NCBI RefSeq assembly: GCF_000374365.1
Contig: NZ_KB894128.1
Span: 1 to 64,000 of the forward strand
Origin: Bacteroides gallinarum DSM 18171 = JCM 13658
Lineage (GTDB): Bacteria; Bacteroidota; Bacteroidia; Bacteroidales; Bacteroidaceae
Length of the DNA: 64,000 nt
Reading direction: 5' to 3'
A program made the position numbers and the translations under genes. Of the stretch, positions 7,027-48,569 are shown one piece after another (within the stretch, counting starts at the first letter, position 1; each line of letters starts with the position of its first letter). Under the pieces are notes generated by a model. It searched no databases. It had not been told where the DNA came from and saw only the letters and a program-made list of their open reading frames with translations.

Positions 7027-7058
7027 GATTTAATTATAGCAAGGAATTTCCTTGAACG

Positions 7059-8463: not shown

Positions 8464-9224
8464 GCTTGTTCTTCTACGGTCGTTTCTTCGTCGGTGTTAT
8501 TGTCTGTTTCCGGATTCTCGTCTACGCTGACATTGAAATAGGCTTCTAATTCTTTTTCTGCCGAGTTGTCTTCGTTTTGTATGTCACGGATAATGACTCC
8601 GTGTTCCAATAAGGCGATGCGCGGGCATACGCCTACCGTGTGGTTGAGGTTGTGGCTGGAGATGATGACGGTTGCCTTGTGTTCTTCGTTGTATTTTTTC
8701 AGCAGTTGTTTGATGATAGACTGCGAGCTCGGGTCGAGGAAGTTGAAGGGTTCGTCCAGTATCAATAGTTGCGGGTGATGCAACATGGCGGAGATAATGC
8801 CTATTTTTTGTTTGTTACCGGCGGAGAAATTGCGTATGAATTTCTTTTGTCCCATGACTTCGCCGTTCATGAAGCGTTCGAAAGGGGTGATACGCTCGTC
8901 TACTTCTTCTTTTTTCAATCCGTACATTTTGCCGATGAAGTAGAAGTATTCTTCCGGGGTGAGGTAGTCTATCAGGAAACCGTCGTCTATAAAAGCGCCG
9001 GTGAAGTTTTTCCAGTCTTCGCTTTTGCATACGTCTATATCGTTAATGGTAACGTTTCCGCGGTCTGCCTGCAACAAATCCAGTATTAACCGGAAAAGCG
9101 TTGTCTTACCGGCTCCGTTATTGCCTACCAAGCCTAACATGTCGCCTTGGTTGATGAAGTAGTTTTCGATATTTACGGCAATCTTTGTGCCGAAGTGTTT
9201 TTGTAGGTTGTTTATCCGAATCAT
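8460..9224 (-). CDS. ABC transporter ATP-binding protein
   Basis: A 254-residue ATPase. Walker A is GNNGAGKTT (residues 34-42), the signature is FSAGNKQKIG, Walker B is LLILDEPFNFLD, and the switch His lies in ISSHNLNH. An acidic tail of ~30 residues (ENPETDNNTDEETTVEEQ) follows. The upstream gene encodes its probable membrane partner (DUF5687) 50 bp away. The pair resembles ABC-2 exporters; the substrate is unknown. Confidence 0.92.
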   Translation of the reverse strand: MIRINNLQKHFGTKIAVNIENYFINQGDMLGLVGNNGAGKTTLFRLILDLLQADRGNVTINDIDVCKSEDWKNFTGAFIDDGFLIDYLTPEEYFYFIGKMYGLKKEEVDERITPFERFMNGEVMGQKKFIRNFSAGNKQKIGIISAMLHHPQLLILDEPFNFLDPSSQSIIKQLLKKYNEEHKATVIISSHNLNHTVGVCPRIALLEHGVIIRDIQNEDNSAEKELEAYFNVSVDENPETDNNTDEETTVEEQA

Positions 9225-9274
9225 ATCTCTGTAAGTCTAAAATCTGAAATCATGAATTTGAAATCTATAAAATC

Positions 9275-10762: not shown

Positions 10763-10790
10763 AATGGATAGGTGGTGGTTAATGTATATG

Positions 10791-10827
10791 AAAAGGCTGC
10801 GCTGCTTTGCAGACAACGCAGCCTTTT
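10791..10827 (-). terminator. Stem-loop after the M16 peptidase gene
   Basis: AAAAGGCTGCG (10791-10801) pairs with CGCAGCCTTTT (10817-10827). On the minus strand it follows the stop codon at 10842 and ends in TTTTC, a weak intrinsic terminator; partial read-through into the DUF5687 gene is plausible. Confidence 0.6.
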
Positions 10828-10841
10828 GGATAAGCTCTGTT

Positions 10842-13664
10842 TTATTTCTTTTCAGGACTAATCATTGAAACAGTGATTTGATTTTTCTGTTTCAGCAGCT
10901 CGTCGGCAAATTGTTGGACTTCTTTTGCTGTGATGCTGTCGATGATTTGTTCGTAGTCTTTTATCGGATTGACGCCGGTATATAGGTATTCGTCTATGCT
11001 GTTCAGCCAGTAGGCATTTTCTTTCAGGTCTTCATTATGTTTTTTCAGCATGTATTCTTTTACTTTGTTCAGGCTGGCTTCATCGGGACCGTTCTTGGCA
11101 AAGGCTTCTGCTTCGGCATAGATAATCTTCATCAGTTTGTCTTGCTTTTCGGGAGCTGTGTTGAAGAAGATTTGAAGAACTGCTCTTTCTGTGGGGTATT
11201 TAACGAGTTGTCCTATCGGATATACACCGTAAGTTCCGCCTTCGTCTTCACGCACTTTCTCTGTATAAATCAGGTTGAGAAGCTGGTCGGTCATGCTCAT
11301 TAGAATGTCGTTGCGGAGGCTGTATTGGCAAGTGCCGCTATAACAGATAAAGTTATTTACTTTCGGAGTTTCCTGCTGGCGGATGAACTCGTTTTTGTAA
11401 ATGCCTTTGCGCATTGTTATATGGTTGTCTTTGAATGTTTCCTTGCGGTTGATAGAGGGTAATGAGCCTAGGTAGGATTCAATCAGCGGTTTTACTGTTT
11501 CTACATCGATGTTCCCTACGAAGATGAAGGTGAAGTCGCTGGCGTCTTTAAAGCGGTCTTGATACATGGACAGTATCTTGTCGTAATTCATCTTATCCAC
11601 CATGTCGGCTTTCATTCTCAGGGTTCTGGGATGTTTCATGTAGAGAGTGGATGTGACGGAGTCGCTGAAAGATGAATTGGGATTCAGGTCCATATTCTGC
11701 AATTGGGCTTTGCTACGGTTTTTGTATGATGCAAAAGCTTCGTCGTCGCGTCTGGGGGAAGTGAAAGTGAGGTAGGTGAGTTGCATCATCGTTTCAAAGT
11801 CTTTAGGAGAGCAACTGCCGGTCACTGCTTCTGTTTTATCGCCGATGCCGTAGTTTACGGCTGCTTTTTTGCCTGCTAACACTTTTTCCAGTTCGATAGC
11901 GCTGAAATTGCCCAAACCGCCTACCGCTACGGCATCCAGCCCGTTGATATTGATTATCTCGGAGTCGGGGAAGAGTGAGCTACCGCCCATACTTACGCCT
12001 TTCATACGGATTTCATCGGCTTTGAAGTCGGTCTTTTTAATTATAACCTTGGCTCCGTTGGATAGTGTCAACATGGTAGTACCGAAAATATCGTCTTTCT
12101 TTTCAGAAACGATTTTGCCGCCTTTCGGGGCTTCTTTCATCAGAGGTTCGTTGGAGACTTTATCTACATACGGGGTCAGCTTTTCTGCCTTTACGTCTTT
12201 CAAAAGTTTCTTGACTGCGTCTTCGCTCGGCAGTTGCAGGCCTTCTTTTTCAGGACCGAAAATGGCTACTACCTGGTTGCTGTCTGTAACCAGCTCTTGC
12301 ATCATCTGATTCAGGGCGTTTACCGGAATGGCGGGTGCTATCTGGTTGATAATAGTATATTCATTGGCGATTCCCGGAATAGGCTCGTTATCGAGGAAGT
12401 GGCGGACGTATTCTTTTACGTAATTTTCATTTTTACGTTTGTCGCGTTCCTGGAAAGCCGATTCCAACTGGCGCAGGTATTCTGCACGGGCACGGGTGTA
12501 TTCTGTTTCGGTGAAACCGAATTGACGGGCGCGTTCTATCTCACGGAGAACGGTTGAGATGCCGTTTTCAATGTTATCTTCTTTGCAGACGACTATACCG
12601 GTGAAAGCGTCTTTTGTCTTGGCAACGAAGAAGTTATCGTCATATGCCGCTGCGTAGATATAGGGTGGGTTGGCTACTTGAACCAGTTCGTTCAAACGTG
12701 CATTCAGCATATTGGTAATCAGGGTAACTGCGTAGTCTTGCATCAGGTAACCTACGTTGTTCTTTTCTTCTCTGGGAGTGGTTTCGTGTTTGTTGAAGAT
12801 AAAGGTTTGTACGTATGGTTGTTCCTTATCGCGTGCAATCAGTACGATAGGTTCTTTGTTGTCATTTACGGGGTAGTATTCGCGCTTGGCGCCGTTGGGT
12901 TGTGCCGGTATGTCGGCAAACATTTTTTTGATTTGAGCTTCGACAGCGTCTACGTCGATGTCGCCTACTACTATTACGCCTTGCAGGTCGGGACGATACC
13001 ATTTCTCATAGTAATCTCTTAATGTTTGAGGTTTGAAGTTCATTACGACGTCCATTGTTCCGATAGGGAAGCAGTTGGCGTATTTGGTTCCGGCAAACAT
13101 AACCGGAAGCATCTTTTCTTGAAAACGTTGCATGGCGCTCATGCGGGTACGCCATTCTTCGTTGATAACACCGCGTTCTTTGTCGATTTCTTTCGGGTCC
13201 AGAGTCAGGTCGTTACTCCAGTCGTGCAGAATCAACAGGCAGGAGTCGATAGCTCCCGGGGTGTTGACCGGTACGTTGGAGATGTTGTAAACCGTTTCGT
13301 CTACGGAAGTGTATGCGTTCAGGTTTTCACCGAATTTTACGCCGATGCGTTCCAGGTATTGTTTCAAGGCATCTCCGGGAAAATGGGTCGTTCCGTTGAA
13401 ACACATGTGTTCGAGGAAGTGGGCAAGACCGCGCTGGTTATCTTCTTCTTGTATGGAACCTACTTTCTGGGCGATATAGAAGTCGGCACGGTTGGCGGGA
13501 AGGCTGTTTTTACGGATGTAATAGGTTAATCCGTTATCCAACTTACCGATACGGACGTCTTTGTCGATAGGGATGGGTGGTAGTTGTTGTGCAAATACCT
13601 GTTGGAAGTTACAGCATACGATGAGTGCAACAATCCATAAATTACGTAATAAGTGTTTCATCAT
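10842..13664 (-). CDS. M16 family zinc peptidase (insulinase/PqqL-like)
   Basis: A 940-residue secreted peptidase with a signal peptide (to about residue 25, ending VFAQ). The inverted zinc motif HxxEH is His82-Phe-Leu-Glu85-His86 in AHFLEHMCFNG, and the downstream Glu ligand is probably in GVINEEWR. The protein has the two-halves layout of M16 enzymes, with a second, inactive-type half (IELEKVLAGKKAAVN..., RRDDEAFASYK). It probably degrades peptides in the periplasm. Monocistronic or first gene before the ABC unit, with a hairpin in between. Confidence 0.92.
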   Translation of the reverse strand: MMKHLLRNLWIVALIVCCNFQQVFAQQLPPIPIDKDVRIGKLDNGLTYYIRKNSLPANRADFYIAQKVGSIQEEDNQRGLAHFLEHMCFNGTTHFPGDALKQYLERIGVKFGENLNAYTSVDETVYNISNVPVNTPGAIDSCLLILHDWSNDLTLDPKEIDKERGVINEEWRTRMSAMQRFQEKMLPVMFAGTKYANCFPIGTMDVVMNFKPQTLRDYYEKWYRPDLQGVIVVGDIDVDAVEAQIKKMFADIPAQPNGAKREYYPVNDNKEPIVLIARDKEQPYVQTFIFNKHETTPREEKNNVGYLMQDYAVTLITNMLNARLNELVQVANPPYIYAAAYDDNFFVAKTKDAFTGIVVCKEDNIENGISTVLREIERARQFGFTETEYTRARAEYLRQLESAFQERDKRKNENYVKEYVRHFLDNEPIPGIANEYTIINQIAPAIPVNALNQMMQELVTDSNQVVAIFGPEKEGLQLPSEDAVKKLLKDVKAEKLTPYVDKVSNEPLMKEAPKGGKIVSEKKDDIFGTTMLTLSNGAKVIIKKTDFKADEIRMKGVSMGGSSLFPDSEIININGLDAVAVGGLGNFSAIELEKVLAGKKAAVNYGIGDKTEAVTGSCSPKDFETMMQLTYLTFTSPRRDDEAFASYKNRSKAQLQNMDLNPNSSFSDSVTSTLYMKHPRTLRMKADMVDKMNYDKILSMYQDRFKDASDFTFIFVGNIDVETVKPLIESYLGSLPSINRKETFKDNHITMRKGIYKNEFIRQQETPKVNNFICYSGTCQYSLRNDILMSMTDQLLNLIYTEKVREDEGGTYGVYPIGQLVKYPTERAVLQIFFNTAPEKQDKLMKIIYAEAEAFAKNGPDEASLNKVKEYMLKKHNEDLKENAYWLNSIDEYLYTGVNPIKDYEQIIDSITAKEVQQFADELLKQKNQITVSMISPEKK

Positions 13665-13734
13665 TATTTGATTTTAAAATGTTTTTCCTTATCTGTCGAA
13701 GCAATAGATAATAAATCACATGGGGGCTACTTTT

Positions 13735-14535
13735 TTATTTAATTGCTTCCCGGATGCGTACTAATTTGGTTAGAAGATTTTCCAGCAGGTCTAATTTCAA
13801 CATATTGGCGCCGTCGCTTTTGGCTACAGCCGGATTTTCGTGTGTCTCGATGAACAGGCCGTCTGCGCCTACGGCGATACCGGCTTTGGCTACGGTTTCA
13901 ATCAGTTGCGGCATCCCGCCTGTAACGCCACTGGTTTGGTTGGGTTGTTGGAGGGAGTGGGTAACGTCCAGTATAACAGGAAAACCGAAAGTTTGCATTT
14001 CCGGTATTCCCCGATAATCCACTACCAAGTCTTGATAGCCGAAAGTTGTTCCGCGTTCTGTAATCATAACATTCTTATTGCCGGCTTCTACTACTTTATC
14101 TGCTGCAAAGCGCATGGCGAGCGGAGAGAGGAACTGTCCTTTCTTTATATTGATTATTTTACCGGTTTTGGCGGCAGCTACCAGTAAATCGGTTTGTCGG
14201 CAAAGGAAAGCGGGAATTTGCAGGATGTCCACATATTGGGCTGCCATGGTAGCTTCTTCTGCTGCATGGATATCCGTTACGGTAGGTACTCCGAATGTGT
14301 CGTGTACTTTTTTAAGGATTTTCAATGCTTTTTCATCGCCTATGCCCATAAATGAGTCCAGGCGCGAACGGTTGGCTTTACGGTAGGAGCCTTTGAATAC
14401 GTAGGGTATTTGCAGTTTGTCGGTAATGGTAACTACACGTTCGGCAATGCGCATTGCCATTTCTTCTCCTTCAATGACGCAAGGACCTGCTAATAGGAAG
14501 AAATTCCCGGCAGGATTATTTTTCAGTTCAATCAT
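13735..14535 (-). CDS. kdsA: 3-deoxy-8-phosphooctulonate synthase (KDO-8-P synthase)
   Basis: A 266-residue class I DAHP-synthase-fold enzyme that joins PEP and arabinose-5-phosphate to give KDO-8-P for lipopolysaccharide inner core. Recognisable blocks: LLAGPCVIEGEEMA, FKGSYRKANRSRLDSFMG, DILQIPAFLCRQTDLL, and ITERGTTFGYQDLVVD. Length is normal. It lies in a same-strand run of housekeeping genes (miaA, lipid kinase, kdsA). Confidence 0.96.
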   Translation of the reverse strand: MIELKNNPAGNFFLLAGPCVIEGEEMAMRIAERVVTITDKLQIPYVFKGSYRKANRSRLDSFMGIGDEKALKILKKVHDTFGVPTVTDIHAAEEATMAAQYVDILQIPAFLCRQTDLLVAAAKTGKIINIKKGQFLSPLAMRFAADKVVEAGNKNVMITERGTTFGYQDLVVDYRGIPEMQTFGFPVILDVTHSLQQPNQTSGVTGGMPQLIETVAKAGIAVGADGLFIETHENPAVAKSDGANMLKLDLLENLLTKLVRIREAIK

Positions 14536-14637
14536 ATCTTTTTGAGTTATCGGTTATTCTTTGATTGCGGGTTATGGGTGATTGGTTATAAGATTTTGGC
14601 TCTGAATCGTTGGGAACGAATGGTTAAACCGTATTTT

Positions 14638-15564
14638 TCAGTTCGGTATAATCAGTGTTATCGCCTCATGCAGTACTCCGATGTCTAACGGGAAATGACG
14701 GGCAAGGATACGTCCGTCCAGGTCGACGGAGGCGTTTTGTGCACGTAATACTTTTATCTTTTGGGTACGGTAGGGCTTCACTACTTTGTGATTGAGGATT
14801 CTTCCTTCCATAAGCATCCATATTCCCGAGAAAAGCTGTAATAGTTCGGGGCGGTAGATAACCGAGACATCCAGCCAGCCATTGTAGGGTACTGCGCTGG
14901 GGGCTTGTCCATATCCCCATGCACTACCTATGCAGACGGTCATAATGCGTCCGCGTATGTGTTCTCCGTTTATTTTGAGGTGCATGCGGTATAGTTTCCG
15001 TTCGAAAATCAATGAGATGAATGCCATAAAATATGACAGGAATTTTACGCCCCAGAAACGTTTGCATTGGTCGGTGATTTTTACGATACTGGCTCCGAGC
15101 CCGATGTTAATGGCATTCAGGAAGTAACGGGTCAGGTGTTTCTCGCCGTCATAATAATAACAGGTTCCTACATCGATTTTACGGCGGCGATTATTTATGA
15201 TGCAATCTACCGCTTCTTTGTATTCGGAGCTCATTTCCCAATATTTGGCAAAGTCGTTTCCTATGCCATTGGGGATAATGCCGATAGCGATATTTTCTTT
15301 ATCTTCTGCGTTGGAATGCATAATGCCGTTGATTGCATCGTTCAGTGCACCGTCACCTCCTACAACGACGATAGTGCGATAGCCGTTATTAGCGAGAATG
15401 CCTGCCAAGCGTTCTACCGAACCGAATCCTTCGGACTGTACGTAGTCATAAGACACGCCTTTGCTGTCCATATATTCTTTGATTTCTTTCCACCGCTTTT
15501 GCACCTTGCGTGTTCCGGCTTTGGGGTTATAGATTACTCCCCATTTATCGGGTTCTACACTCAT
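14638..15564 (-). CDS. Diacylglycerol/lipid kinase family protein
   Basis: A 308-residue protein of the DagK/YegS/BmrU-type lipid kinase family. The N-terminal catalytic domain has IYNPKAG and the phosphate-binding VVGGDGALND (GGDG at residues 69-72), followed by IPNGIGNDFAKY; the C-terminal half is the beta-sandwich typical of YegS-like proteins. I chose ATG 15564 (MSVEPDKW) because a longer frame would run back into miaA. Substrate (diacylglycerol or another lipid) is not determinable. Confidence 0.88.
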   Translation of the reverse strand: MSVEPDKWGVIYNPKAGTRKVQKRWKEIKEYMDSKGVSYDYVQSEGFGSVERLAGILANNGYRTIVVVGGDGALNDAINGIMHSNAEDKENIAIGIIPNGIGNDFAKYWEMSSEYKEAVDCIINNRRRKIDVGTCYYYDGEKHLTRYFLNAINIGLGASIVKITDQCKRFWGVKFLSYFMAFISLIFERKLYRMHLKINGEHIRGRIMTVCIGSAWGYGQAPSAVPYNGWLDVSVIYRPELLQLFSGIWMLMEGRILNHKVVKPYRTQKIKVLRAQNASVDLDGRILARHFPLDIGVLHEAITLIIPN

Positions 15565-15632
15565 ATGTACATTCCTTTTATTAAGTCTAACATTCTCTAT
15601 GTATCGCTTTGCCAACGTTGCCGTCAAAGATA

Positions 15633-16553
15633 CTAAATCTCTTTGAGTTTTGACTTTACAAAAGCTATCTTTTCTTGCATAGGACACCGGGCATCTATCC
15701 AGTGAATGGTAAAGCCTCGCCTTTCCATTCCCCGGAACCATGTCATTTGGCGTTTGGCGAACTGGTGGATAGCTATTTCCAATTGGCTGAACATTTCGTC
15801 GTAGGTCAGTTTTCCGATAATGTAAAGTGTCAGGTACTTGTATTCTAATCCGTAATAGATGAGGTCGTCCGGCTGGATACCTCGCTCTATCAACAGGCGT
15901 ACTTCGTCTACCATTCCTTCATTCAGCCGTTGGCGTAGTCGGCGGGTAATTTTCTCGCGTCGTAATTCCCGGTCTATGTCTATACCGATGATGAGGCTGT
16001 TCAATTGTGGGAATGAACGCTCTTCTACCGGGGTATGGGCGTAAAATTCTTCGATTTCGATAGCACGGATAGCACGTTTCACCGTGTCTACATCTGTTAT
16101 ATTGTGCAGGCTTTTATAAGTTTTCAGTATCTCAGTCAGGGTTTCCAACGATTTATCTGACAGGCGGGTGCGTAATTCTTGGTTTTCGGGCACAGGGAGC
16201 AGTCTATACCCTTTCAGTACCGATTCCAGATACATTCCTGTTCCGCCACATACAATGGGTAGGCAGCCTTTTTGCCTGATACTTTCGTAAGCAGCCAAAA
16301 AATCGCGCTGATATTCGAATACATTGTATTTGTATCCCGGGTCGGCTATATCGATAAGGTGGTAAGGTATTTGTTTACCGTTTACGATGTAATCGGCAAG
16401 GTCTTTGCCTGTACCGAGAGTCATGTCCCGATAAATTTGCCGGGAATCGGCACTGATGATTTCTGTGTTGAGCTCTGCTGCTAATGCGGCGGCAAATGGG
16501 GTCTTGCCGGATGCTGTTGGACCTAATATGGCGATTAAATCATAGTCAGGCAT
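15633..16553 (-). CDS. miaA: tRNA dimethylallyltransferase
   Basis: A 306-residue prenyltransferase that adds the dimethylallyl group to A37 of tRNAs reading UNN codons. The P-loop is GPTASGKT (residues ~11-18); ISADSRQIYRDMTLGTGK and YHLIDIADPG are family signatures, and GLEYKYLTLYI and KRQMTWFRG lie near the C-terminus. Length is normal. Upstream lie two promoter-like copies (see 16578-16710). Confidence 0.96.
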   Translation of the reverse strand: MPDYDLIAILGPTASGKTPFAAALAAELNTEIISADSRQIYRDMTLGTGKDLADYIVNGKQIPYHLIDIADPGYKYNVFEYQRDFLAAYESIRQKGCLPIVCGGTGMYLESVLKGYRLLPVPENQELRTRLSDKSLETLTEILKTYKSLHNITDVDTVKRAIRAIEIEEFYAHTPVEERSFPQLNSLIIGIDIDRELRREKITRRLRQRLNEGMVDEVRLLIERGIQPDDLIYYGLEYKYLTLYIIGKLTYDEMFSQLEIAIHQFAKRQMTWFRGMERRGFTIHWIDARCPMQEKIAFVKSKLKEI

Positions 16554-34506: not shown

Positions 34507-37365
34507 ATGAAAACACAGAAAACTCTTTTACTCTTATGCGGCCTGCTTTGTTACATGTTGCCGCTGGCGGCGCAGAAGCCCGCAACTAATCCGGTGATTT
34601 ATGCCGATGTGCCGGACATGTCGATGCTGCGTGTGGGCGATACCTATTACATGAGCAGCACCACAATGCATATGTCTCCGGGCGTTCCTATCATGAAGTC
34701 GAAAGACCTGGTGAACTGGGAGATAGTGAATTATGCCTACGACACGCTTGCAGATATACCCGTGATGAACCTGGACAACGGCGAAAACACCTATGGCCGT
34801 GGTTCGTGGGCGAGCTGCCTCCGCTATCACAAAGGGCTTTATTACCTCTCCACATTTGCGCAAACCACGGGCAAGACGTATTTCTATACCACGGAAAACC
34901 TGGAGAAGGGGTCGTGGAAACGTACGGAGTTCTCGCCCGCCTACCATGACCACTCTTTCTTCTTCGATGACGACGGGCATATCTACATGATATACGGTAA
35001 CGGAAAACTCTTTCTGGCGGAGCTGGAGCCGAACCTTTCGGGGGTGAAACCCGGTACGGAACGGGTGCTGATAGAGAATGCCAGTGCGCCGGCAGGAGAT
35101 AATATCATGCTGGGAGCAGAGGGCTCGCAACTTTTCAAGGTGAACGGCAAGTATTACCTTTTCAATATTGCCTGGCCGCACGGCGGGGTGCGTACCGTGA
35201 TTGTGCATCGCGCAGACAAGATAACGGGACCCTACGAGGGACGTGTCGTCTTTCAAGACCGCGGCATCGCGCAAGGCGGGCTGGTGGATACGCCGGACGG
35301 ACGCTGGTTTGCCTACCTGTTCGAAGATTGCGGGTCGGTAGGGCGTATTCCTTACCTCGTTCCGGTGGAGTGGAAAGACGGCTGGCCGGTGCTTGGCGTA
35401 GAGGGGCTCGCCCCTGCCGGGTTGGAGTTGCCTGACAGCCGCGGGCTGATTCCGGGTATTGTAAACTCCGACGGTTTCAGCCGTAAGAAGGGCGAACGCG
35501 CGTTGCCTCTGGTATGGCAGTGGAATCATAATCCGGATAACTCCCTTTGGTCTCTTTCCGCCCGCAAGGGATATCTGCGGCTGACGACGGGACGGGTGGA
35601 GACTTCTTTGATGCAGGCCAGGAATACGCTGACGCAGCGCACTATCGGCCCAGTCTGTTCGGGTTCGGTAGGCATGGATGTTTCGGGGATGAAAGAGGGA
35701 GACTTTGCGGGTCTTGCCCTTTTCCAGCGTAAGTACGGTCAAGTCGGCGTCAAAGTTATCGAAGGCAAGAAGTATATCGTAATGGTGAATGGTGCGGCCG
35801 AGCAGCCGGTGGAAGTGGAGAAACTTCCGTTGGAGCAGCAGGTAGTGTACCTGAAAGCGGCCTGTGACTTCCGCGGGCGGGCGGATAAAGGTTACTTTTA
35901 TTACAGCCTCGACGGAAAGGAGTGGAAGGCGATAGGCAATGTCCTGGGAATGGAATACACCCTTCCGCATTTCATGGGTTACCGTTTTGCCCTGTTCAAC
36001 TACGCTACGAAGGAGACGGGCGGCTATGCGGACTTCGATTACTTCGAGATAACAGACCGGTTTCCGGAGCTTTCCGGAGCCTCGGAACTTCGGGCAGAAT
36101 GCCGTGACAAGCAGCGGCTTATCGTCACTACCGACCTCGGAGGGACGGATCCCGACGATGTGCAGTCCATGATTCATCTGTTGCTCTGTTCTAATATGAT
36201 TGATATAGAAGGGCTTATCAGTTCCCAGGTTTGGGTGGACAATTCGGATAAAACGGATAAGATAAGGAAAGTCGTTGAAACATTCGGGCAGGTACTGCCG
36301 CGTTTGAAGAAGCACGCAGACGGGTATCCGGATATCGATTACCTCAGGTCGGTTATCAGGAGGGGACAAGAGAAATCGAATATGTCGGGAGTGGGAGAGG
36401 GAAAAGATTCTCCCGGGTCGGAACTCATTATCGAGACGGTCGATAGGGAAAACGACGGACGTCCTGTCTGGATTGCAGCCTGGGGAGGGATGAACACCGT
36501 GGCGCAGGCGCTGTGGAAGGTAAGGAACTCGCGGAGCGGGCAGGCTTTCCGCAAGTTTGCCGGTAAGATACGTATCTACGATGTATTGGGACAGGATGAC
36601 GCGGGTGCATGGATTGCCAAGGAGTTTCCGGAGATAATGTATATCCGTAATAAGGAAGTGTATGGCTGGGCGCCTTCCGACGAATGGATTAAGAGAAATA
36701 TCCAGTCCTGCAAGCCTTTGGGTGAGGCGTATCCTGACCGGATGTGGGCTACGGAAGGAGATTCGCCTTCTTTCTTATATGTATATGCCAATGGTCTGAA
36801 TGTTCCGGAGTATATAGACTACGGAGGCTGGGGAGGCCGGTTCTCTACGGAGAAGGCAAGCGGGGTACGCGGTATGGATTTCATTGTGAAAAGCGGGAAG
36901 GACGAAACGCAGTACGACCCGTATTATATGTATGCGAGTTCGGAAGAAGGCATCGGGGCTATAAACAGGTGGAAGCAACATATATGGAATAATTTTGCCG
37001 CCCGGATACTTTGGACTACCACCGATGATTATTCTGTCGTGAATCATCATCCTGTGGCGGCCGTTGACGGCGACCGGTCTTTGCAATGCATCTATAAGAG
37101 GGTAAAGGCGGGTAGCAGCTTCTGCCTGGATGCTTCGATGTCGGCAGACCCCGACGGAGATTCGTTGGATTATAATTGGTCTGTGTACCGTGAGCCGGGT
37201 ACTTATAAAGGAACGGTGGGCATCGAAGGAAAGAGTACGCCCTTATGTAAGGTTACTGTCCCCTCGGACGCTTCGGGGAAGTCTTTCCATATCATCCTGG
37301 AACTGACGGATAAGGGTGTACCGGCTCTGACTGCATATAGGAGGATTGTGGTGGATGTGGATTAG
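34507..37365 (+). CDS. GH43 - Sde182 (DUF1593) fusion protein
   Basis: 952 residues with a signal peptide (ending LAAQ). Residues ~28-310 are a GH43 propeller (YADVPDMSML base Asp; YHDHSFFFDDDG; acid Glu in GAEGSQLFKVNGKYYL), followed by a C-terminal beta-sandwich to ~520. From about 535 a different enzyme-like module begins: RLIVTTDLGGTDPDDVQSM, with the Asp-rich N-terminus of the nucleoside-hydrolase-like fold of DUF1593/Sde182 proteins, and its own C-terminal Ig-like domain (VNHHPVAAVDGDRS ... SMSADPDGDSLDYNWSVYREPG). Either half is the size of a full single-domain gene elsewhere. The GH43 half probably removes arabinose or xylose; the Sde182 half has no assigned activity. First gene of block C. 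Confidence 0.88.
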   Translation: MKTQKTLLLLCGLLCYMLPLAAQKPATNPVIYADVPDMSMLRVGDTYYMSSTTMHMSPGVPIMKSKDLVNWEIVNYAYDTLADIPVMNLDNGENTYGRGSWASCLRYHKGLYYLSTFAQTTGKTYFYTTENLEKGSWKRTEFSPAYHDHSFFFDDDGHIYMIYGNGKLFLAELEPNLSGVKPGTERVLIENASAPAGDNIMLGAEGSQLFKVNGKYYLFNIAWPHGGVRTVIVHRADKITGPYEGRVVFQDRGIAQGGLVDTPDGRWFAYLFEDCGSVGRIPYLVPVEWKDGWPVLGVEGLAPAGLELPDSRGLIPGIVNSDGFSRKKGERALPLVWQWNHNPDNSLWSLSARKGYLRLTTGRVETSLMQARNTLTQRTIGPVCSGSVGMDVSGMKEGDFAGLALFQRKYGQVGVKVIEGKKYIVMVNGAAEQPVEVEKLPLEQQVVYLKAACDFRGRADKGYFYYSLDGKEWKAIGNVLGMEYTLPHFMGYRFALFNYATKETGGYADFDYFEITDRFPELSGASELRAECRDKQRLIVTTDLGGTDPDDVQSMIHLLLCSNMIDIEGLISSQVWVDNSDKTDKIRKVVETFGQVLPRLKKHADGYPDIDYLRSVIRRGQEKSNMSGVGEGKDSPGSELIIETVDRENDGRPVWIAAWGGMNTVAQALWKVRNSRSGQAFRKFAGKIRIYDVLGQDDAGAWIAKEFPEIMYIRNKEVYGWAPSDEWIKRNIQSCKPLGEAYPDRMWATEGDSPSFLYVYANGLNVPEYIDYGGWGGRFSTEKASGVRGMDFIVKSGKDETQYDPYYMYASSEEGIGAINRWKQHIWNNFAARILWTTTDDYSVVNHHPVAAVDGDRSLQCIYKRVKAGSSFCLDASMSADPDGDSLDYNWSVYREPGTYKGTVGIEGKSTPLCKVTVPSDASGKSFHIILELTDKGVPALTAYRRIVVDVD

Positions 37366-41487: not shown

Positions 41488-43941
41488 CTACAACTTAACT
41501 TTTATTTTCTTTCCCGTATAGGTAACTGTCTTGCTGTTGCCGTCTATTGTTTTCACTGTAAAGCGGCGTTGTTCCAGCATGCCATTGTATGCTCCCTTCC
41601 GTGTACCGATAGTGAGGGTCTTGCTGGCATTGTTCCATGTCATCGGGATTTCGGTGTAAGCTCCCTTTTCGTAGTTGTAATTGTCTCCCTCGTCTTCGTA
41701 AAGGGTGAAGCTGCCGTTTTCGCCGGGATATATGCACAGGGTCAGGTTGTCCCATTTCTTTTCACCGGTGTACTGCACATCCGGGCCGAACGGAACGATG
41801 CTGCCGGCACGTACAAAGAGGGGGATACGGTTGAACGTGGTGGAAACAGTGAGTTTCTGTCCGCCCTCTACGGCTTCGTTCGTCCAGAAGTTATACCAGC
41901 GTGTGTCGGCGGGCAGGTAGACTTCCATGCTCTTGGGCTGGGTAAAGTCGGCAAGTACGGGCGTATCGACGGTCGCCTTATGGTCGCGGTTCCAACCTTC
42001 GTTTTCTTTCAGGCTCTTTTGCTGCACTTCCGGAGTGTATTGGGCATGGAGTACCGGCGCTACGAGGAATGATTTGCCGAACATGTATTCATTGTTTATA
42101 TCCCATGTCTGCTTGTCGTTCAGGAAATCCATGAAAAGCGCACGCATAAAGGTGGAGCGGTTGTGCGTTACGTCCCATGAAGTGGAATAGATGTATGGCA
42201 ACAGGGTATAGCGCAACTTGACTGCATCGACCAGGGCGTCGTACACGGGTTCGCCCGCTTTGCCGTACCAGTAGAATTCGCGCGGAACGTCGGCGCCGTG
42301 GCTGCGCATCATGGGGCAGAAAACACCGAACTGCAACCAGCGCACGTAGAGCTCCTGGTACATCGGGTTGCGGGTGGCGCTGTTGTCTGCCCAGCTCTTG
42401 TTGTACGAACCGGCGAAGAAGCCGCCGAGGTCAGTGTTCCAGTGGGGCATGCCGGTCAGCGAGAAGTTCAACCCTGCCGTTATCTGCTTGCGGAACATGT
42501 CCCAGGAGGATTGTACGTCGCCCGACCAGACGTTGGAACCGTAACGCTGCTGTCCCAGGAAGCCGGAACGGGTCAGGATGATAACACGCTTGTCTTGGGT
42601 CAACGCACGTTGATGTTCGGAAACACCGCCTACGCTAATGAGCGGATAGGCATTGCGCACGCTGCGGTAAGAGCCGAGGAAGGTCTGGCGGTCGAAGTCG
42701 CTTTCTTTATGATTGAAATGGTCCGGTTCCGTAGAGTCCATCCACCAGCCGTCCATACCGAGCTGGAAGATGCCTTTGTTGAGGTGTTCCCAATAAATGT
42801 CGCGGGCTTTGGGACTGTAAGCATCGTACACGCGTACTCCGGAGGGGTATTCCAGGTTGGGCGGCCAGCCTTCGACACCGGATTGCGGCCAGGTTTCGAT
42901 GTCGAAAAGCAGTCCTTCCTTGTCCAGTGCCCTGTAAGGCTTGGTGGCAGGACCGAACGACGACCAAATGGAAATCATCATGCGGGCGTTCATGGCGTGT
43001 ACTTCGTCAATCATTTCTTTGGGGCGGCTGAAGGCGGGATTCTGGAAGTCCATGGCATTCCAGAGATAGTTGTGTCCCCAGTATTGCCAGTCTTGAATGA
43101 TGCAGTCCAGCGGAATGCCCAGTTCGCGGTATTTCTTCACTACTCCTACTGTTTCTTCCTGGCTTTTGTACCGTTCTTTGCTCTGCATGAATCCGTAGCT
43201 CCAAAGCGGCATCATCGGTACATCGCCGGTCAGTGCGCGTACTTCGGCTATGACTCCGTCGGCAGAGCCGCCGTACATGAAGTAGTAGTCTATGCAGTCG
43301 CCCACTTCGGAGCGGAAGGAGGTTTCCTGCTCGTTGTCGGTGTATGTGGTTCCCGAATAGTTGTCCCAGAACAGACCGTAGCCTTTGGTAGACTGGAAGA
43401 AGGGGGAAACATCCTCTACATTGCCCTGAACCAGATGTTTGGTCATATCGCGTTGCATCATCTGTCCGTTTTGTAATTGCCCGAGTCCGTAAATGCCTTC
43501 TTCTTTGTCGGTGGTGAAACCTTGATAAACGGCATAGGTGGCACGTCCGGCATCGCTGACGGGTGTAAAAGCTTTGCTGTTTTCCTGTTCGCTGAGCAAT
43601 GTACCGCCGTTGGCTCCGGTATAGCTGATAATACCTGTTTGGGTATTGAGTGTTACCGTGAGCGACTGGCTTTTCATAACGATGCGGCCGTTTCCGGGAG
43701 TGGTGATTTTGATACTCGGATTTCCGGGTCGTGCAATGACGGACAGGCTTTTCTTGTCCACACTCTTGCCCTGGGGCGTTTTTAATACGCGGAGGGTACG
43801 GGGACCGAACCACTGGATTTCTACGTCGGTCTGCTTGCCGGGAATTGTGGTTTTAATGCCCGATGCGGTTTTTTGATACTCTTGTGCCCATGTCCATGAG
43901 GCGAGCAGGCACAAGGCCATGATTGCGATACTTCTTTTCAT
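41488..43941 (-). CDS. GH31 alpha-glycosidase (alpha-xylosidase/alpha-glucosidase type)
   Basis: 817 residues with a signal peptide ending TWAQ. The N-terminal beta-sandwich is followed by the (beta/alpha)8 barrel with the substrate-pocket motif GHNYLWNAMDF, nucleophile Asp in GWWMDSTEPDHF and the acid region around LTRSGFLGQQRYG and WSGDVQSSWDMF; a DUF5110-like C-terminal sandwich (LTLCIYPGENGSFTLYEDEGDNY, quoted as a block) closes the protein. Exact specificity (alpha-xylose, alpha-glucose or alpha-galactose) is not evident. Second gene of block D, 29 bp after the GH43-CBM6 gene. Confidence 0.93.
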   Translation of the reverse strand: MKRSIAIMALCLLASWTWAQEYQKTASGIKTTIPGKQTDVEIQWFGPRTLRVLKTPQGKSVDKKSLSVIARPGNPSIKITTPGNGRIVMKSQSLTVTLNTQTGIISYTGANGGTLLSEQENSKAFTPVSDAGRATYAVYQGFTTDKEEGIYGLGQLQNGQMMQRDMTKHLVQGNVEDVSPFFQSTKGYGLFWDNYSGTTYTDNEQETSFRSEVGDCIDYYFMYGGSADGVIAEVRALTGDVPMMPLWSYGFMQSKERYKSQEETVGVVKKYRELGIPLDCIIQDWQYWGHNYLWNAMDFQNPAFSRPKEMIDEVHAMNARMMISIWSSFGPATKPYRALDKEGLLFDIETWPQSGVEGWPPNLEYPSGVRVYDAYSPKARDIYWEHLNKGIFQLGMDGWWMDSTEPDHFNHKESDFDRQTFLGSYRSVRNAYPLISVGGVSEHQRALTQDKRVIILTRSGFLGQQRYGSNVWSGDVQSSWDMFRKQITAGLNFSLTGMPHWNTDLGGFFAGSYNKSWADNSATRNPMYQELYVRWLQFGVFCPMMRSHGADVPREFYWYGKAGEPVYDALVDAVKLRYTLLPYIYSTSWDVTHNRSTFMRALFMDFLNDKQTWDINNEYMFGKSFLVAPVLHAQYTPEVQQKSLKENEGWNRDHKATVDTPVLADFTQPKSMEVYLPADTRWYNFWTNEAVEGGQKLTVSTTFNRIPLFVRAGSIVPFGPDVQYTGEKKWDNLTLCIYPGENGSFTLYEDEGDNYNYEKGAYTEIPMTWNNASKTLTIGTRKGAYNGMLEQRRFTVKTIDGNSKTVTYTGKKIKVKL

Positions 43942-43970: not shown

Positions 43971-45347
43971 TTATTTATCTGATTTCTTGAATTCCCACCA
44001 GTCCAGCATGAACAGGTTCTTCTTCTGTAACCGGTTGCCTTTGAATACGAAATACAGGTCGTGTATTCCTTCGATTTCTTTTATGCCGGTTTCGAATTCC
44101 TTTAATTTATCTTTAGTGTTGGCTATATGGACGGTTCCTATACATTCCCCTTCTTCCGAATCTATACGGATTTCGATGTAGCCGCCATAAAGGTGGCAGG
44201 CGGCGGATACTTTGAACCGGCTTGCTCCTTGTTTGAAGTCCACCCCTTTTACCATTAGATATTCGCCTTCGTCTATGCCGGTTACCAATTGGTTGCACCG
44301 GTCGCTGCCCCATACGTTCTTAGGAGTGGTTTTCAGCCCATATCCCCATGCCATGGTTTCGGCCTCTACTTTGCGGTAAGGGTTGAAGTGCTCGATTTGT
44401 TCCAGTTTGCAGTCAAGGAAGTAGGGGAGCTCGCGGATAGTTCCGTCCGGGTTGTATTGCATCTCGGCCACGGAAACCGAACGGCGTTCTGCGTGGCGGC
44501 TGGTTTCGAGGCGGAAAATGTCATAGTTCAGTCCGAAGCAGTAGGACTTGCCTTTATAGTCGATAATGCCGGGATGATTGCCGCGGGTGCTGGGGGTGTG
44601 GTCCATGATGTGGCCTTTGTATTGCCAGGGTCCCGTAGGGCTGTCGCTCATGGCATAACCGATACCTTCGGGGCAACAGGTCGAGGCGAATGCCATGTAG
44701 TAATGCTTACCGCGTTTGTAGAACCAGGGACCTTCCTGGTAGTCCTCAATCTTCGGAGTCTTTACGATGTTGCCCGTATAGGAAATCATGTCTTTGTTGA
44801 GTTTGACATAGTAGAGGTTCGGATTTCCCCAATACATATATGCTTGCCCGTCGTCGTCGATGAATACGGTAGGGTCGATGTCATCCCAATGCTCTTTTTG
44901 CCATACGAGCGGTTTGCCTATCGGGTCTTTGAAAGGCCCATAAGGGGAGTCTGCAACCAGTACGCCGATGCCGTTTCCATGAATGGGGCAGTACATATAA
45001 AACTTACCGTCGCGTTCGATGACCTGGGGAGCCCATGCTCCGTTATCGCCTTTGTACCATTCGAAGTCTTTGAGCGATGCCACGGCTCCGCGGTCTTGCC
45101 AATTCACCATGTCGGTGGAAGTGTATAACAGCCATTCCCGCATCTTGAAACCCTCTGCATCGTCCTCGTCGTGGGTTGTATAGAGATAAACCGTGTCGTT
45201 GTGTACTATCGGGGCCGGGTCGGCCGTGTACTTTGTCTGGATAACGGGCATGTTCAAGTCGGGGAGTATCCCTTCTGTGTTCTGTGCCGTTAACCAACCG
45301 GATATAAGAAGCGATATTCCGGCAATTCCTACTTTTGCATTTTTCAT
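43971..45347 (-). CDS. GH43-CBM6 arabinofuranosidase/xylosidase type (paralogue)
   Basis: 458 residues from the ATG at 45347 (MKNAKVGIAG, a normal signal peptide; the longer frame adds 12 polar residues). GH43 propeller with base Asp in [24 protein letters not shown], and acid Glu in YQEGPWFYKRGK; C-terminal CBM6-like domain. Long stretches of the catalytic domain are the same as in the gene at 40056, while signal peptide and CBM6 differ more. Transcribed in the opposite direction, first gene of block D. Confidence 0.93.
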   Translation of the reverse strand: MKNAKVGIAGISLLISGWLTAQNTEGILPDLNMPVIQTKYTADPAPIVHNDTVYLYTTHDEDDAEGFKMREWLLYTSTDMVNWQDRGAVASLKDFEWYKGDNGAWAPQVIERDGKFYMYCPIHGNGIGVLVADSPYGPFKDPIGKPLVWQKEHWDDIDPTVFIDDDGQAYMYWGNPNLYYVKLNKDMISYTGNIVKTPKIEDYQEGPWFYKRGKHYYMAFASTCCPEGIGYAMSDSPTGPWQYKGHIMDHTPSTRGNHPGIIDYKGKSYCFGLNYDIFRLETSRHAERRSVSVAEMQYNPDGTIRELPYFLDCKLEQIEHFNPYRKVEAETMAWGYGLKTTPKNVWGSDRCNQLVTGIDEGEYLMVKGVDFKQGASRFKVSAACHLYGGYIEIRIDSEEGECIGTVHIANTKDKLKEFETGIKEIEGIHDLYFVFKGNRLQKKNLFMLDWWEFKKSDK

Positions 45348-45380: not shown

Positions 45381-45388
45381 CAAAAGTA
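45381..45388 (-). promoter_or_regulatory. -7 element of block D
   Basis: Minus strand TACTTTTG matches TAnnTTTG and lies ~34 bp before the ATG at 45347. No clean -33 element at the usual spacing; a GTAACC half-site lies just upstream (45415-45410), possibly a single activator half-site. Confidence 0.4.
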
Positions 45389-45458
45389 GTCTGAAACCGC
45401 TTGAATGCCGGTTACAAATGTTGCAGAAAGCAACACTCTCGTTGAAAAAGGGGAGTTT

Positions 45459-48400
45459 TTACCGCTTTTTCCATTGGTTTACGTATTGCGAAGGGCGCAT
45501 GCCGAATTCCTCCTGGAAACACTTGCTCAGGTAGCTGGAAGTGCTGAACCCGACGAGGTCGGCTACTTCGGCTACGGTGTAACCTTCTTTCAAGAGCCGG
45601 GCTGCCCGTTTCAGACGAATGGAACGGATGAAGTTGGTGGGCGTTTTCCCCACTACCGAAATGAGTTTACGGTAAAGTCCCGTGCGGTCCATGCCCATGT
45701 CGCGGCTCAGAACTTCCACCGAATAGGCGGGATTGTCGAGGTTCTGCTCTACGTATTGCAGCACTTTACGGAGAAAAGCTTCATCGGCAGCCGATAAAAG
45801 GGAGTCGTCCGGCAGGGGTTTACGGGTGTTTTTTAACTGTTCTTTCCGCTTTTCCTGCTGTTCTAACAACTGGCGCATGTTAAGTAGCAGTTCTTCCTGT
45901 GTCCATTCGTTTTCGCCGGGCGACAGAGGAGACAATATACCTTCCGAAAGCTGCTCAACCAGCTCTTTCAGCGCTGCGGCATTGTTCCGGATTTCCTCGA
46001 GTTGCAGTTTGTCTTTTCCTTCGTCCGCATATTGCAGCAGGTTGTCCAAAGGGGCGATAATCCGGTCGACAGGCTCTTTCAGTTCCTCATTGACGTTTTG
46101 CAGGAAAACGGTTTTCATCTCGTCCAGTTTCTGTTTCTGTTCGCGCAGCAGTTTCCGGCGTTTGCGCCGTATATATATAAGGATAAGGAAGATGATGCTT
46201 CCTGTCGTGAACAGAGCGTAAAAGAGATAGGCATAGGGCGTTTTCCAGAACGGAGCCTTTATCGTGATGTTCATTTCCGCATATTTGTCCGGCCATACTT
46301 CGCTGTTATCGGCGGCCTGTACCCGGAATGTGTAGGTTCTGGGAGGCAGGTTGGTGTAGGTGGCGTACCCCTTGCCGGCAGAGGAACGGATTTCTCTCTC
46401 CGAATGGTCGATGCCTGTCAATCGATAACGGTAATATGTCTGTGTGGGGTTGATGTAATTCAAGGCGGAGAATTCTAAGGTAAAGAAATTCTGGTCGTGT
46501 TCCAGGACGATTTCTTTAGTCTGGGTGATAGGCCGGGACAGTATCCGGTTGCCGTTGTAGCTTTTACCGTTCTCCACCTGCTCTCCCAGCAATTCAAGGC
46601 CGGTGAACAGAGGGGGAGAGTATGCTTTATCCGTTACGGCGGGAGAGGTTCCGATTGTGTTGAAGCCGTTGATACCGCCCCAATACAATGTTCCGTCGGT
46701 TGCCGCGAAAGCGGAACGTTCGCAAAATTCATCTGTGATTACGCCGTCGTACCGGTTGAAGTTGGCGAATGAATAGGGTGTCTGCTCCTTGTTTCTGCCG
46801 GTCGTAATGCGTGTTATCCCGTTGGAGGTGGATACCCAGACAGTATTGTCCCCGGCCTGGATTATAGAGCGTATGGAATTGTTGACTAATCCGTCGGTGG
46901 TGTAGAATGTTTTCTGCTGTCCGGTATCGGGGTTCCATAGCAGTAATCCGTCTTCCAGGCCAACCCAGATTTGTTTCCGGTTGTCTACCATAATGGCGTT
47001 GCAGGTGTGGGAGGTGGGATTGAAGCGGTATTCTTTCTTTTGGCGGTTATAGATAAACCACCCTTTCCGCCCGATACCTGCCAGGCTGTCTTTTCCATAA
47101 GGAACCAGTTGGTAAACGGTGGAATTGTTTGTACCGGGTATTTCCGCTTCTTTTTCGAATTTCCCGGTTTCGGGGGTAAATGTTCCGAAGCCTTGCTTGT
47201 CGATACATACCTGGAATGTTCCGTCGGGCAGTTCCATAATGGAACGGATGTTGTATCCGGGCAACAGGTATTGTTCGGTCTTTCCGTTCGGCAGGATACA
47301 GAATAGGCCTTCTCCGGTGGTCCCCAGCCAGATTCGTTGCCGGCTGTCTTTGAATAAGGCGTTGCAGCAAGTGGCGGACAGTGCTTGCGAATACGGGGTT
47401 AAGCTGCCGCCGGAAGGAGTATAGTAGAACAATCCTTTCTTTGTACCTACCAATATATTCTCCTCTTTATCCGTGGCAAAGCAGGTAACAGACAGATTGG
47501 CGTTTTTGGAAACCGGGAATAAGCTGCTACCGATATTCTGGAAACGGAAACGGTTGGGGTGGTAATAGAGTATACCTCGGTTCAGGGTTCCTAACCATAG
47601 TCCTCCCTGATTATCGTTATAAAGAGTACTTACCTCCGTATGGATAGTGCGCCCGTCTACCAGTTTGAGGTTGGGTATGTGTTGCTTCTTTTCCAGTCCG
47701 GCGTCGATGTTCCATAAACCCATATGGCCGCTGACCCATATGCTGCCGTCTTTATCAACGGAAAGGCTGTTGAGCCATTGCCCGGTCTGGAGCACGATGT
47801 TCCACTTCCTTCTTGTTATGTCGTAGTTCAGCATCACCCCGCCTCTGTTGCCGTTGCGCAATTGATAGAAAGTGTCGTTGCCGGGTACTACGTAGGAGGT
47901 GTTTTCATATTTTCCTTCGGGAAGCTCATCGGGTAATTTCTGCCTGTAAATTTCGTTACGCGATTCAAGATTATAGCAAACCAGCAAGCCGGAACGGTAA
48001 AAAAGGTACAGGCGGTCTTTCACTACGCCGAGGTCGTACACCTGGTCGGCGGTATCGCCAGTCAGGGATATATGGGGCAGGAAAGTTTCTGCTTTCAGGC
48101 TTTCCCTGTCTATACGTACCAGTTCGTCTTTTTCGCTTATGACCCACAGGCTTTTAGTCCTGTCTATAAAGAAGTCCTTCATGGGCGAGCTGATACCCCA
48201 TGAGGCAAGCAGGCTGTCCGGCCGCTCTACGAAACATTCGCGTCCTATGTCCACGACCATTAACTGGTGCTGGTTCTTAAGCCACATGTATCCGTGAGAA
48301 TCTATGTATTCGTGATGAAAGCCCGAATAGGCCGACAGTGGGCAGATATGTTTCCGGTTGTAATGCAGGTAACTGAAATCGGTTCCGTCGTACAAGTTCA

Positions 48401-48569
48401 ACAACCCCTCGGTAATAATCATCATGCGCCCGTCCGGTAATTGGGTAATGTTGCGCACCCTGTTTCCGGCCAGTCCGTCCGTTCCGTTAATCGGAGTGAA
48501 TACACAGTATTTCTCCGCGGCGAGGGGTAATGAAAAAAGTAGAAATAGTAGATTGATTATGTATTTCAT
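45459..48569 (-). CDS. Kinase-less HTCS-like regulator: periplasmic sensor - TM - AraC
   Basis: 1036 residues. A signal peptide precedes two Reg_prop beta-propellers (repeated blades such as DKEENILVGTKKGLFYYTPS and DSRQRIWLGTTGEGLFCI, about 25-660) and a Y_Y_Y domain (YRYRLTGIDHSEREIR ... YTFRVQAADNSEVW). One TM helix follows at about 780-800. The cytoplasmic linker (about 800-925) has a remnant of the HisKA helix, FLQNVNEELKEPVDRIIAPL, where hybrid regulators have N-x-S-H-E-x-R-T-P; the His is Glu here. No HATPase (N, G1, G2 boxes) and no receiver domain are present. The last ~108 residues are an AraC-type domain (VEVLSRDMGMDRTGLYRKL, VAEVADLVGFSTSSYLSKCF). A full hybrid would need 250-300 more residues. 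It probably senses xylan oligosaccharides and activates the locus without phosphotransfer. Confidence 0.92.
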   Translation of the reverse strand: MKYIINLLFLLFSLPLAAEKYCVFTPINGTDGLAGNRVRNITQLPDGRMMIITEGLLNLYDGTDFSYLHYNRKHICPLSAYSGFHHEYIDSHGYMWLKNQHQLMVVDIGRECFVERPDSLLASWGISSPMKDFFIDRTKSLWVISEKDELVRIDRESLKAETFLPHISLTGDTADQVYDLGVVKDRLYLFYRSGLLVCYNLESRNEIYRQKLPDELPEGKYENTSYVVPGNDTFYQLRNGNRGGVMLNYDITRRKWNIVLQTGQWLNSLSVDKDGSIWVSGHMGLWNIDAGLEKKQHIPNLKLVDGRTIHTEVSTLYNDNQGGLWLGTLNRGILYYHPNRFRFQNIGSSLFPVSKNANLSVTCFATDKEENILVGTKKGLFYYTPSGGSLTPYSQALSATCCNALFKDSRQRIWLGTTGEGLFCILPNGKTEQYLLPGYNIRSIMELPDGTFQVCIDKQGFGTFTPETGKFEKEAEIPGTNNSTVYQLVPYGKDSLAGIGRKGWFIYNRQKKEYRFNPTSHTCNAIMVDNRKQIWVGLEDGLLLWNPDTGQQKTFYTTDGLVNNSIRSIIQAGDNTVWVSTSNGITRITTGRNKEQTPYSFANFNRYDGVITDEFCERSAFAATDGTLYWGGINGFNTIGTSPAVTDKAYSPPLFTGLELLGEQVENGKSYNGNRILSRPITQTKEIVLEHDQNFFTLEFSALNYINPTQTYYRYRLTGIDHSEREIRSSAGKGYATYTNLPPRTYTFRVQAADNSEVWPDKYAEMNITIKAPFWKTPYAYLFYALFTTGSIIFLILIYIRRKRRKLLREQKQKLDEMKTVFLQNVNEELKEPVDRIIAPLDNLLQYADEGKDKLQLEEIRNNAAALKELVEQLSEGILSPLSPGENEWTQEELLLNMRQLLEQQEKRKEQLKNTRKPLPDDSLLSAADEAFLRKVLQYVEQNLDNPAYSVEVLSRDMGMDRTGLYRKLISVVGKTPTNFIRSIRLKRAARLLKEGYTVAEVADLVGFSTSSYLSKCFQEEFGMRPSQYVNQWKKR

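Follow-up and report, generated by a model that had tools for sequence, protein, structure and literature searches.

Hybrid two-component systems (HTCSs) are membrane-anchored DNA-binding proteins, and SusR is a sugar-sensing regulator that carries neither kinase nor receiver. In most HTCSs the receiver is reported to keep the AraC domain inactive until it is phosphorylated (PMC11253607), and the operators predicted for them are direct repeats with a mean period of 21 bp (PMC3878776). SusR and the SusR-like proteins (BT3705 and BT3091 of B. thetaiotaomicron) join a periplasmic sugar sensor to a cytoplasmic DNA-binding domain in one membrane polypeptide; that domain has no significant similarity to other known regulators, and the predicted operator repeats lie 67 or 77 bp apart (PMC3878776). 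Here we describe a regulator encoded at positions 45459-48569 (reverse strand) of the first 64,000 nucleotides of contig NZ_KB894128.1 of Bacteroides gallinarum DSM 18171 = JCM 13658 (assembly GCF_000374365.1). This whole stretch of 64,000 nucleotides is called the window, and coordinates without another label refer to it. We propose, with a probability of roughly 0.68, that the protein is a phosphorylation-independent, membrane-tethered, ligand-switched activator of a GH43-CBM6 and a GH31 gene, derived from an HTCS.

The regulator shares with HTCSs the Reg_prop/Y_Y_Y sensor, the transmembrane (TM) helix, the C-terminal AraC domain, the place in a polysaccharide utilization locus and a direct-repeat operator of about 21-bp period (predicted from sequence). 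It differs from them in having no HATPase, no receiver fold and no phospho-acceptor histidine. Judged by its sequence it is not an HTCS, since three defining features are absent: a HisKA domain with its histidine, HATPase_c, and a receiver with the S/CHIP motif. Its parts are as follows.

45459-48569, reverse strand: regulator gene lacking the kinase-receiver core, 1036 amino acids (open frame; 15 orthologues)
46254-48512, reverse strand: periplasmic sensor, propellers (Reg_prop) and Y_Y_Y, residues 20-772 (Pfam; 4a2l by sequence and Foldseek)
46167-46238, reverse strand: TM helix, about residues 778-801, running on into the next helix (AlphaFold helix 778-847; TM extent by eye)
45939-46133, reverse strand: remnant of the HisKA/DHp dimerization hairpin, residues 813-877 (HisKA 13.9 bits; local DHp model 49 bits; helices 778-847 and 852-875; weak match to 4mtx_D)
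46086-46088, reverse strand: codon of Glu828, at the position of the phospho-acceptor histidine (alignment; histidine absent in 16/16)
45828-45902, reverse strand: retained receiver alpha5 helix and start of the linker, residues 890-914 (alignment, alpha5 profile, model)
45462-45791, reverse strand: AraC-type DNA-binding domain, residues 927-1036 (Pfam HTH_18; fold matches)

An earlier note on this DNA, made from the letters alone, had described one continuous 1036-residue frame with a propeller/Y_Y_Y sensor and a TM helix, and the single intact reading frame and its Pfam matches bear this out: Reg_prop, Y_Y_Y and HTH_18/HTH_AraC all score above the Pfam cut-offs. Among the best 25 of 26 NCBIfam matches listed, no model reached its cut-off. 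The sensor resembles that of BT4663 both in sequence (PDB match to 4a2l, E 5.7e-56) and in fold (Foldseek to 4a2l, E 2.5e-50). The TM helix was assigned by eye from the sequence and the AlphaFold model; it starts at residue 778, the AraC domain starts at about 927, and about 125 cytoplasmic residues lie between the two, as the note had also said. In the AlphaFold model, helices at 778-847, 852-875 and 891-914 precede the AraC domain, such that the TM helix continues into the hairpin and alpha5 forms a separate helix ahead of the AraC domain. Structure prediction of the cytoplasmic part, a check that the note had proposed for residues 780-930, yields the hairpin helices, the alpha5 helix and the AraC domain, with an unsure junction at 878-889. 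When the cytoplasmic part was searched with Foldseek, AraC-domain structures ranked first.

Orthologues were compared as group A, which comprises the window regulator and 15 orthologues, i.e., 16 genes in 16 genomes of two genera (7 and 9). The near-copies L038/L039 and L087/L115/L116 are included in the 16, which become 13 once collapsed, and because orthologues share kinship, a count of 16/16 does not stand for 16 independent events. Neither HATPase_c nor Response_reg was among the 12 Pfam families matched to the regulator (E <=10, HMMER filters dropping most matches above about 0.1), and local hidden Markov models (HMMs) for the HATPase and the receiver were negative as well. HisKA remained below threshold (13.9 bits versus a cut-off of 26.9, residues 819-874). 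The H-box reads NVNEELKEP, compared to NISHELRTP in the aligned full-length relatives, and the phospho-acceptor position in group A is occupied by glutamine in 12 genes, glutamate in three and arginine in one, with histidine in 0/16; the loss of the histidine that the note had described is therefore common to the group. Relative to its full-length sisters, to which it is 40-44% identical over residues 1-875, the regulator shows two alignment breaks, at the end of the dimerization hairpin and right before receiver alpha5. The surviving alpha5 reads QEELLLNMRQLLEQQEKRKEQ, compared to MNILLLRIQHLIEQQDQRKKL in the full-length sisters. An alpha5 profile of 24 residues, derived from 26 full-length proteins and compared with the best of 200 shuffles, beat the shuffles in 12/16 group A linkers (<=11 bits) and in 13/15 linkers of group B (<=20 bits), a second set of core-less regulators defined below. 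The S/CHIP motif of the receiver was found in 0/16 group A and 0/15 group B genes, compared to 28/32 full-length proteins. Thus, the earlier statement that ATPase and receiver are missing stands as far as matches to HATPase_c and Response_reg are concerned, but one helix of the receiver is still recognizable. As read from its sequence, a phosphorelay inside this protein is impossible.

The homologue survey suggested in the earlier note found the same deletion throughout: the domain junction is identical in 16/16 group A genes, which excludes a sequencing or assembly error. Among 149 genomes of the genus, full-length orthologues of the regulator occur in four others (74-79% identity) and a shorter form in two. 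Contiguous matches to a profile of the cytoplasmic part were obtained in 9/399 genomes of the family, in 9/61 genomes of the second genus and, across the order, in 1/295 genomes, the source genome only. The ratio of nonsynonymous to synonymous substitution rates (dN/dS) was 0.03-0.30 for the sensor, 0.04-0.27 for the hairpin remnant and 0-0.03 for the AraC domain (7/8 pairs with finite dS; dS is near saturation in distant pairs). An old loss of the phosphorelay, kept under purifying selection, is supported by these sequence comparisons.

Beside the gene lies an element of the form CAAC-N17-CAAC-N31/32-TAnnTTTG, with the box 35 or 36 bp past the second CAAC. We take TAnnTTTG to be the Bacteroides -7 consensus. 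In the window the element consists of three parts.

45431-45444, reverse strand: predicted operator half-site 1, CAAC-N6-GTTG (pattern scan)
45410-45423, reverse strand: predicted operator half-site 2, CAACATTTGT..., 21 bp from half-site 1 (pattern scan)
45381-45388, reverse strand: TAnnTTTG promoter box, 35 bp past the second CAAC (pattern scan)

This predicted operator stands directly 3' of the stop codon in 16/16 group A genes (13/13 collapsed), a count that is no blind test because the pattern was derived from 13 of these loci. Operator counts refer to the strict form, and diverged copies escape the scan. Shuffled regions contained the repeat in 0.19% of cases and the complete element with its box in 0/8,000, and none of the other spacers tried (0-59) occurred in more than 3/16 group A loci. 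Out of sample, 11/15 group B genes had the element no more than 80 bp from the stop codon, and in seven of them it overlapped the stop at the same offset; the strict element was not found at the remaining four. Group A loci, 295,183 bases in all, contain the strict form 15 times: 13 copies stand at the regulator and two at GH31 genes, one before the gene (L089) and one at its called start (L091); it is only in these two loci that the regulator is followed by a SusC-like gene. A set of 33 chosen loci with neither group A nor group B genes (261,153 bases) gave 0 strict copies (L042 and L043, with one copy each, lie outside this set). The whole source genome has one strict copy, at window 45381-45444, ahead of GH43-GH31. 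A relaxed scan of the window, allowing one mismatch in all, gave the copy at the regulator and one weak place near 7865 on the reverse strand, and none in five shuffles. Across the 149 genus genomes we counted by hand 69 matches versus 23 for a reversed control, and 7/7 group A genomes among them carry the element at the regulator. The pattern is not exclusive to core-less regulators, since 52/149 genomes have some match, part of it evidently coding DNA.

Similar elements occur near full-length HTCS genes. Among 18 such genes, two (L042, L043) have the element 5' of the gene on the opposite strand, and five (L044, L045, L046, L048, L049) have an N18 version 3' of the gene, with a period one base longer. 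The other 11, including L047, a close sister of L046, have neither version within 600 bp on each side (less at locus ends). A direct repeat of 77 bp (87 bp in two orthologues) 5' of the regulator was first tempting because SusR operators are spaced 67/77 bp; it was dropped, as 11/13 matching letters compared with a shuffle maximum of 11-12.

The conserved operator beside the gene argues that the regulator is a working transcription factor. The proximal half-site would lie near -46 to -33, counted from the -7 box, and AraC-type activators usually sit at about this proximal place upstream of the promoter, as at araBAD. Two genes would be under its control.

43971-45347, reverse strand: GH43-CBM6, first gene of the predicted target operon (domain scan; start-codon choice)
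41488-43941, reverse strand: GH31, second gene of the predicted target operon (domain scan; BLAST to orthologous loci)

A GH31 gene lies near the regulator in 12/12 flanked orthologous loci (BLAST to the window GH31, 44-92% identity). The predicted target in the source genome is this small GH43-CBM6/GH31 operon and not visibly the whole xylan locus. The description of the protein as the regulator of its locus, made in the earlier note, has to be narrowed to one small predicted operon, and the locus has a full-length HTCS 15 kb away.

We suggest that the regulator works as follows. A dimer, joined through the hairpin remnant and alpha5, would set two AraC domains on the repeat, and the periplasmic propellers would bind an oligosaccharide, probably derived from xylan. 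Ligand binding would then shift the TM helix and the helices beneath it, thereby switching the AraC pair, which would activate the downstream GH43-CBM6/GH31 operon. Because the repeat period of 21 bp is the HTCS mean, the AraC pair should sit on DNA as it does in HTCSs, and loss of the receiver seems to have left this placement unchanged. With the inhibitory receiver clamp gone, control would have to come from the helices or be absent; we favor control by the sensor through the helices over lost control because the sensor is conserved.

Several observations weigh against this proposal. The junction at 878-889 is modeled with pLDDT <50 (monomer models only), the match to a dimerization/phosphotransfer fold is weak (Foldseek 4mtx_D, E 0.94), and the alpha5 profile gives low scores for group A (<=11 bits), of which 4/16 do not exceed shuffles. 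Contacts of the clamp between receiver and DNA-binding domain (REC-DBD) are kept in group A, though receiver loss might have freed them: the aspartate is present in 16/16 and the lysine in 14/16 group A genes, compared to 11/15 and 15/15 in group B and 31/32 and 32/32 in full-length proteins. A relaxation of clamp residues after receiver loss was also considered as a line of support; it is only slight in groups A and B and is not counted as evidence. Group A orthologues of 937-985 amino acids (L040, L041 and, by length, L086-L091 and L115-L117) could point to weaker selection on sensing; in L040 and L041 the sensor is short of about 60-75 residues (propeller blades) near residues 389-450 of the window regulator. 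Despite the shortened sensor, regulator, operator and GH31 remain together in loci of the L040/L041 type. Finally, another AraC protein might use the operator, and activation rather than repression is deduced from one thing, the operator position.

If the sensor had lost its control, the regulator would be a constitutive tethered activator whose AraC pair is always bound once the clamp is gone, and regulation would pass through expression of the gene or catabolite control. Work by Gao, Wu and Stock (2024) indicates that DNA binding becomes independent of phosphorylation once the REC-DBD contact is broken and that the DNA-binding domain could be activated by tethering to a dimer (PMC11253607), and the propeller blades lost in some orthologues point the same way. 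However, the sensor keeps its BT4663-like fold and the low dN/dS given above, and we consider this explanation unlikely. It is less probable still that the regulator assists the full-length HTCS of its locus as an accessory subunit, pairing with it via sensor or hairpin, or competing for its operators, and so tuning it. Proximity speaks for such a role: a full-length HTCS lies near the regulator in the source genome (15 kb), G138, G131, G041, G470 (adjacent) and G294, and a 296-residue AraC protein adjoins the regulator in G414. Yet in G095, G456 and others listed the best match to the source-genome HTCS is far off or on another contig while regulator, operator and GH31 are still together, and a scan of 220 bp 3' and 400 bp 5' of the full-length HTCS gene in the source-genome locus gave no strict operator.

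A repressor, whose phosphorylation-independent binding would block the promoter until ligand frees it, appears very improbable, because the repeat stops upstream of the -7 box, with its proximal half-site near the place typical of AraC activators, and no second strict copy lies over the start; in its favor, HTCSs with a broken clamp may repress, with BT2391 as the cited case (PMC11253607). The loss of two domains and of the phospho-acceptor could also suggest a pseudogene or an assembly error, but the open frame, the junction common to 16 genomes, purifying selection and the conserved operator refute this. The ligand-switched activator thus remains the explanation that we prefer.

The regulator is not the only one of its kind. 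A search of the family gave 12 short frames, nine of which (L096-L104) are core-less by local HMMs, while L094, L095 and L105 have a core; eight of the nine plus seven later genes make up group B (n=15). In group B the TM helix is followed by a short helix fused to alpha5 and then by the AraC domain, and the hairpin is gone. The group B profile matched in 33/301 genomes of the family, covering 11/30 genera (most of these genes are known as profile matches only), and among 247 genomes of the phylum it also matched in one, from another family. The tree of the DNA-binding block joins groups A and B (96/92), the joined alignment does so weakly (82/70), and the sensor tail does not; approximately unbiased (AU) tests on a single origin of A and B reject neither view (p 0.125, 0.145, 0.153). 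In the DNA-binding tree, L042/L043 are the full-length proteins closest to A and B (97/93). Core-less L104 has a long branch and changes place between trees, next to L046/L047 in one and within group B in the other; it was not used. Duplicate full-length L005 and L009 were removed from the trees, and L050, which has no local Y_Y_Y match, was left out of the sensor-tail tree.

The source genome has 18 frames with Y_Y_Y, 14 of 1275-1512 residues and four short. The short ones are two AraC types (the window regulator and L050), one that is SusR-like by eye (L093), and L092. L050 (L050:846-3629, contig 28) is a second core-less Reg_prop-Y_Y_Y-TM-AraC regulator of 927 amino acids, with about 60 residues from TM to AraC and no recognizable alpha5; in L050, as in L104, the alpha5 profile did not score above shuffles. 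L093 (L093:1459-4353, contig 17) has a SusR-like sensor and, by eye, a LuxR-like C-terminus, and it adjoins the full-length HTCS L051:1018-4842. The tree places L050 beside L051 (99/90; the L050 branch is long). Since L050 thus groups with a full-length HTCS, the kinase-receiver core was probably lost at least twice. It is tempting to order the proteins as a stepwise dismantling in which the DNA switch was kept, from the full-length HTCS through the dead hairpin of group A to the lost hairpin and TM-alpha5 fusion of group B. Because alpha5 and the linker are the part kept in both groups, they may be what actually couples the AraC pair mechanically, with or without phosphorylation. We offer this scheme tentatively, as one possible history.

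The surroundings of the gene confirm the xylan locus named in the earlier note. The locus contains GH10, five GH43, two GH115, CE15-GH8, GH95-SASA (with an acetylesterase domain), GH2 and GH31 around the regulator; SusC/SusD-like pairs and a second GH10 were assigned by eye. It is a utilization locus of the glucuronoarabinoxylan type. At 34507-37365 a single chain joins GH43 to a Sde182 nucleoside-hydrolase-like domain at its C-terminus. In G131 (L037:7600-7850) the GH43 start past the operator seems, by eye, to have lost its frame; the operator and GH31 remain. In L038, L039 and L041 the regulator lies beside genes for IPP transferase, diacylglycerol kinase and an M16 peptidase, which in the window (8460-16553) form the opposite end of the xylan locus; these shared neighbors suggest that the locus keeps one chromosomal site but has been rearranged.

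The full-length HTCS of the source genome (1363 residues) is encoded just past the end of the window on the same contig, and the distance between such an HTCS and the regulator is 12 kb in G138, 11 kb in G131 and 32 kb in G041. In G470 a 42%-identical full-length HTCS and the core-less regulator stand in tandem with a 55-bp gap (L088:2081-6160 and 6216-9155), in G294 the two are about 2 kb apart (L090:14304-18323 and 9562-12450), and in G414 the 296-residue AraC protein (L087:12082-12972) directly abuts the regulator. The best match to the source-genome HTCS lies 132 kb from the regulator in G095 and >1 Mb away in G456; in the remaining group A genomes, among the matches listed, it is further off or on another contig. 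In the xylan locus of B. xylanisolvens, the HTCS gene BXY_29350 is required for growth on xylan (PMC4855328).

ToxR has a cytoplasmic OmpR-like winged helix and a periplasmic C-terminus, whereas the regulator carries an AraC domain at its C-terminus; the ToxR-type likeness drawn in the earlier note has to be corrected on this point, as the output domain is AraC-type and not a winged helix. The chromosome would be pulled to the membrane, as the note also supposed, but this is not special, since it holds for all HTCSs, themselves membrane-anchored. One-component periplasmic sugar sensors of the SusR type are already present in Bacteroides (PMC3878776). The regulator has their layout, and it differs from them in its AraC/HTH_18 domain and in its 21-bp repeat; on the evidence of sequence and predicted operator, it would work SusR-like in layout and HTCS-like on DNA.

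The regulator also falls under the sequence definition of the transmembrane transcriptional regulators (TTRs), with TM and DNA-binding domain in one chain and no two-component core. One of these, Rsp of Neisseria gonorrhoeae, a chimera of the PilS receptor and the PilR DNA-binding domain, is a parallel case; sensor and DNA-binding domains of TTRs, including Rsp, differ from those of the regulator (PMC10269533). That report raises the possibility that some TTRs evolved from two-component systems and describes about 72% of Bacteroides TTRs as hybrid, so that its census may hold core-less regulators among the rest (PMC10269533). BT4236 has likewise lost the histidine, with glutamine at the phospho-acceptor site, and was suggested to be phosphorylation-independent; unlike the regulator, it is counted as an HTCS and has a receiver, with the non-consensus contact motif CSIP-EK (PMC11253607). 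PDB entry 3ott, titled 'putative one component system BT4673', has a related sensor fold, and 3va6 names the same protein a hybrid two-component system; BT4673 was compared by its sensor and the entry titles. In the available parts of the literature searched (PMC10766802, PMC3878776, PMC3243724, PMC11253607, PMC3404733, PMC8631079, PMC10269533, PMC12125979 and PMC4855328), we found no description of a Reg_prop/Y_Y_Y-TM-AraC regulator without kinase and receiver, of the stepwise series or of the operator; one-component sugar sensors such as SusR and membrane-bound regulators as a class were known already.

These regulators bear on the question of how, in an HTCS, a sugar signal from the periplasm reaches the AraC domains. 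They form a natural series in which sensor type and operator type are shared, the DNA-binding domains are close relatives, and the phosphorelay is full, partial or absent. For genome annotation, core-less regulators are easily miscounted as HTCSs. With about 680-1055 residues, compared to about 1350, they would be compact glycan-responsive switches with a defined operator. Side-by-side comparison of the series would show what the phosphorelay contributes, and whether the helix alone carries the signal.

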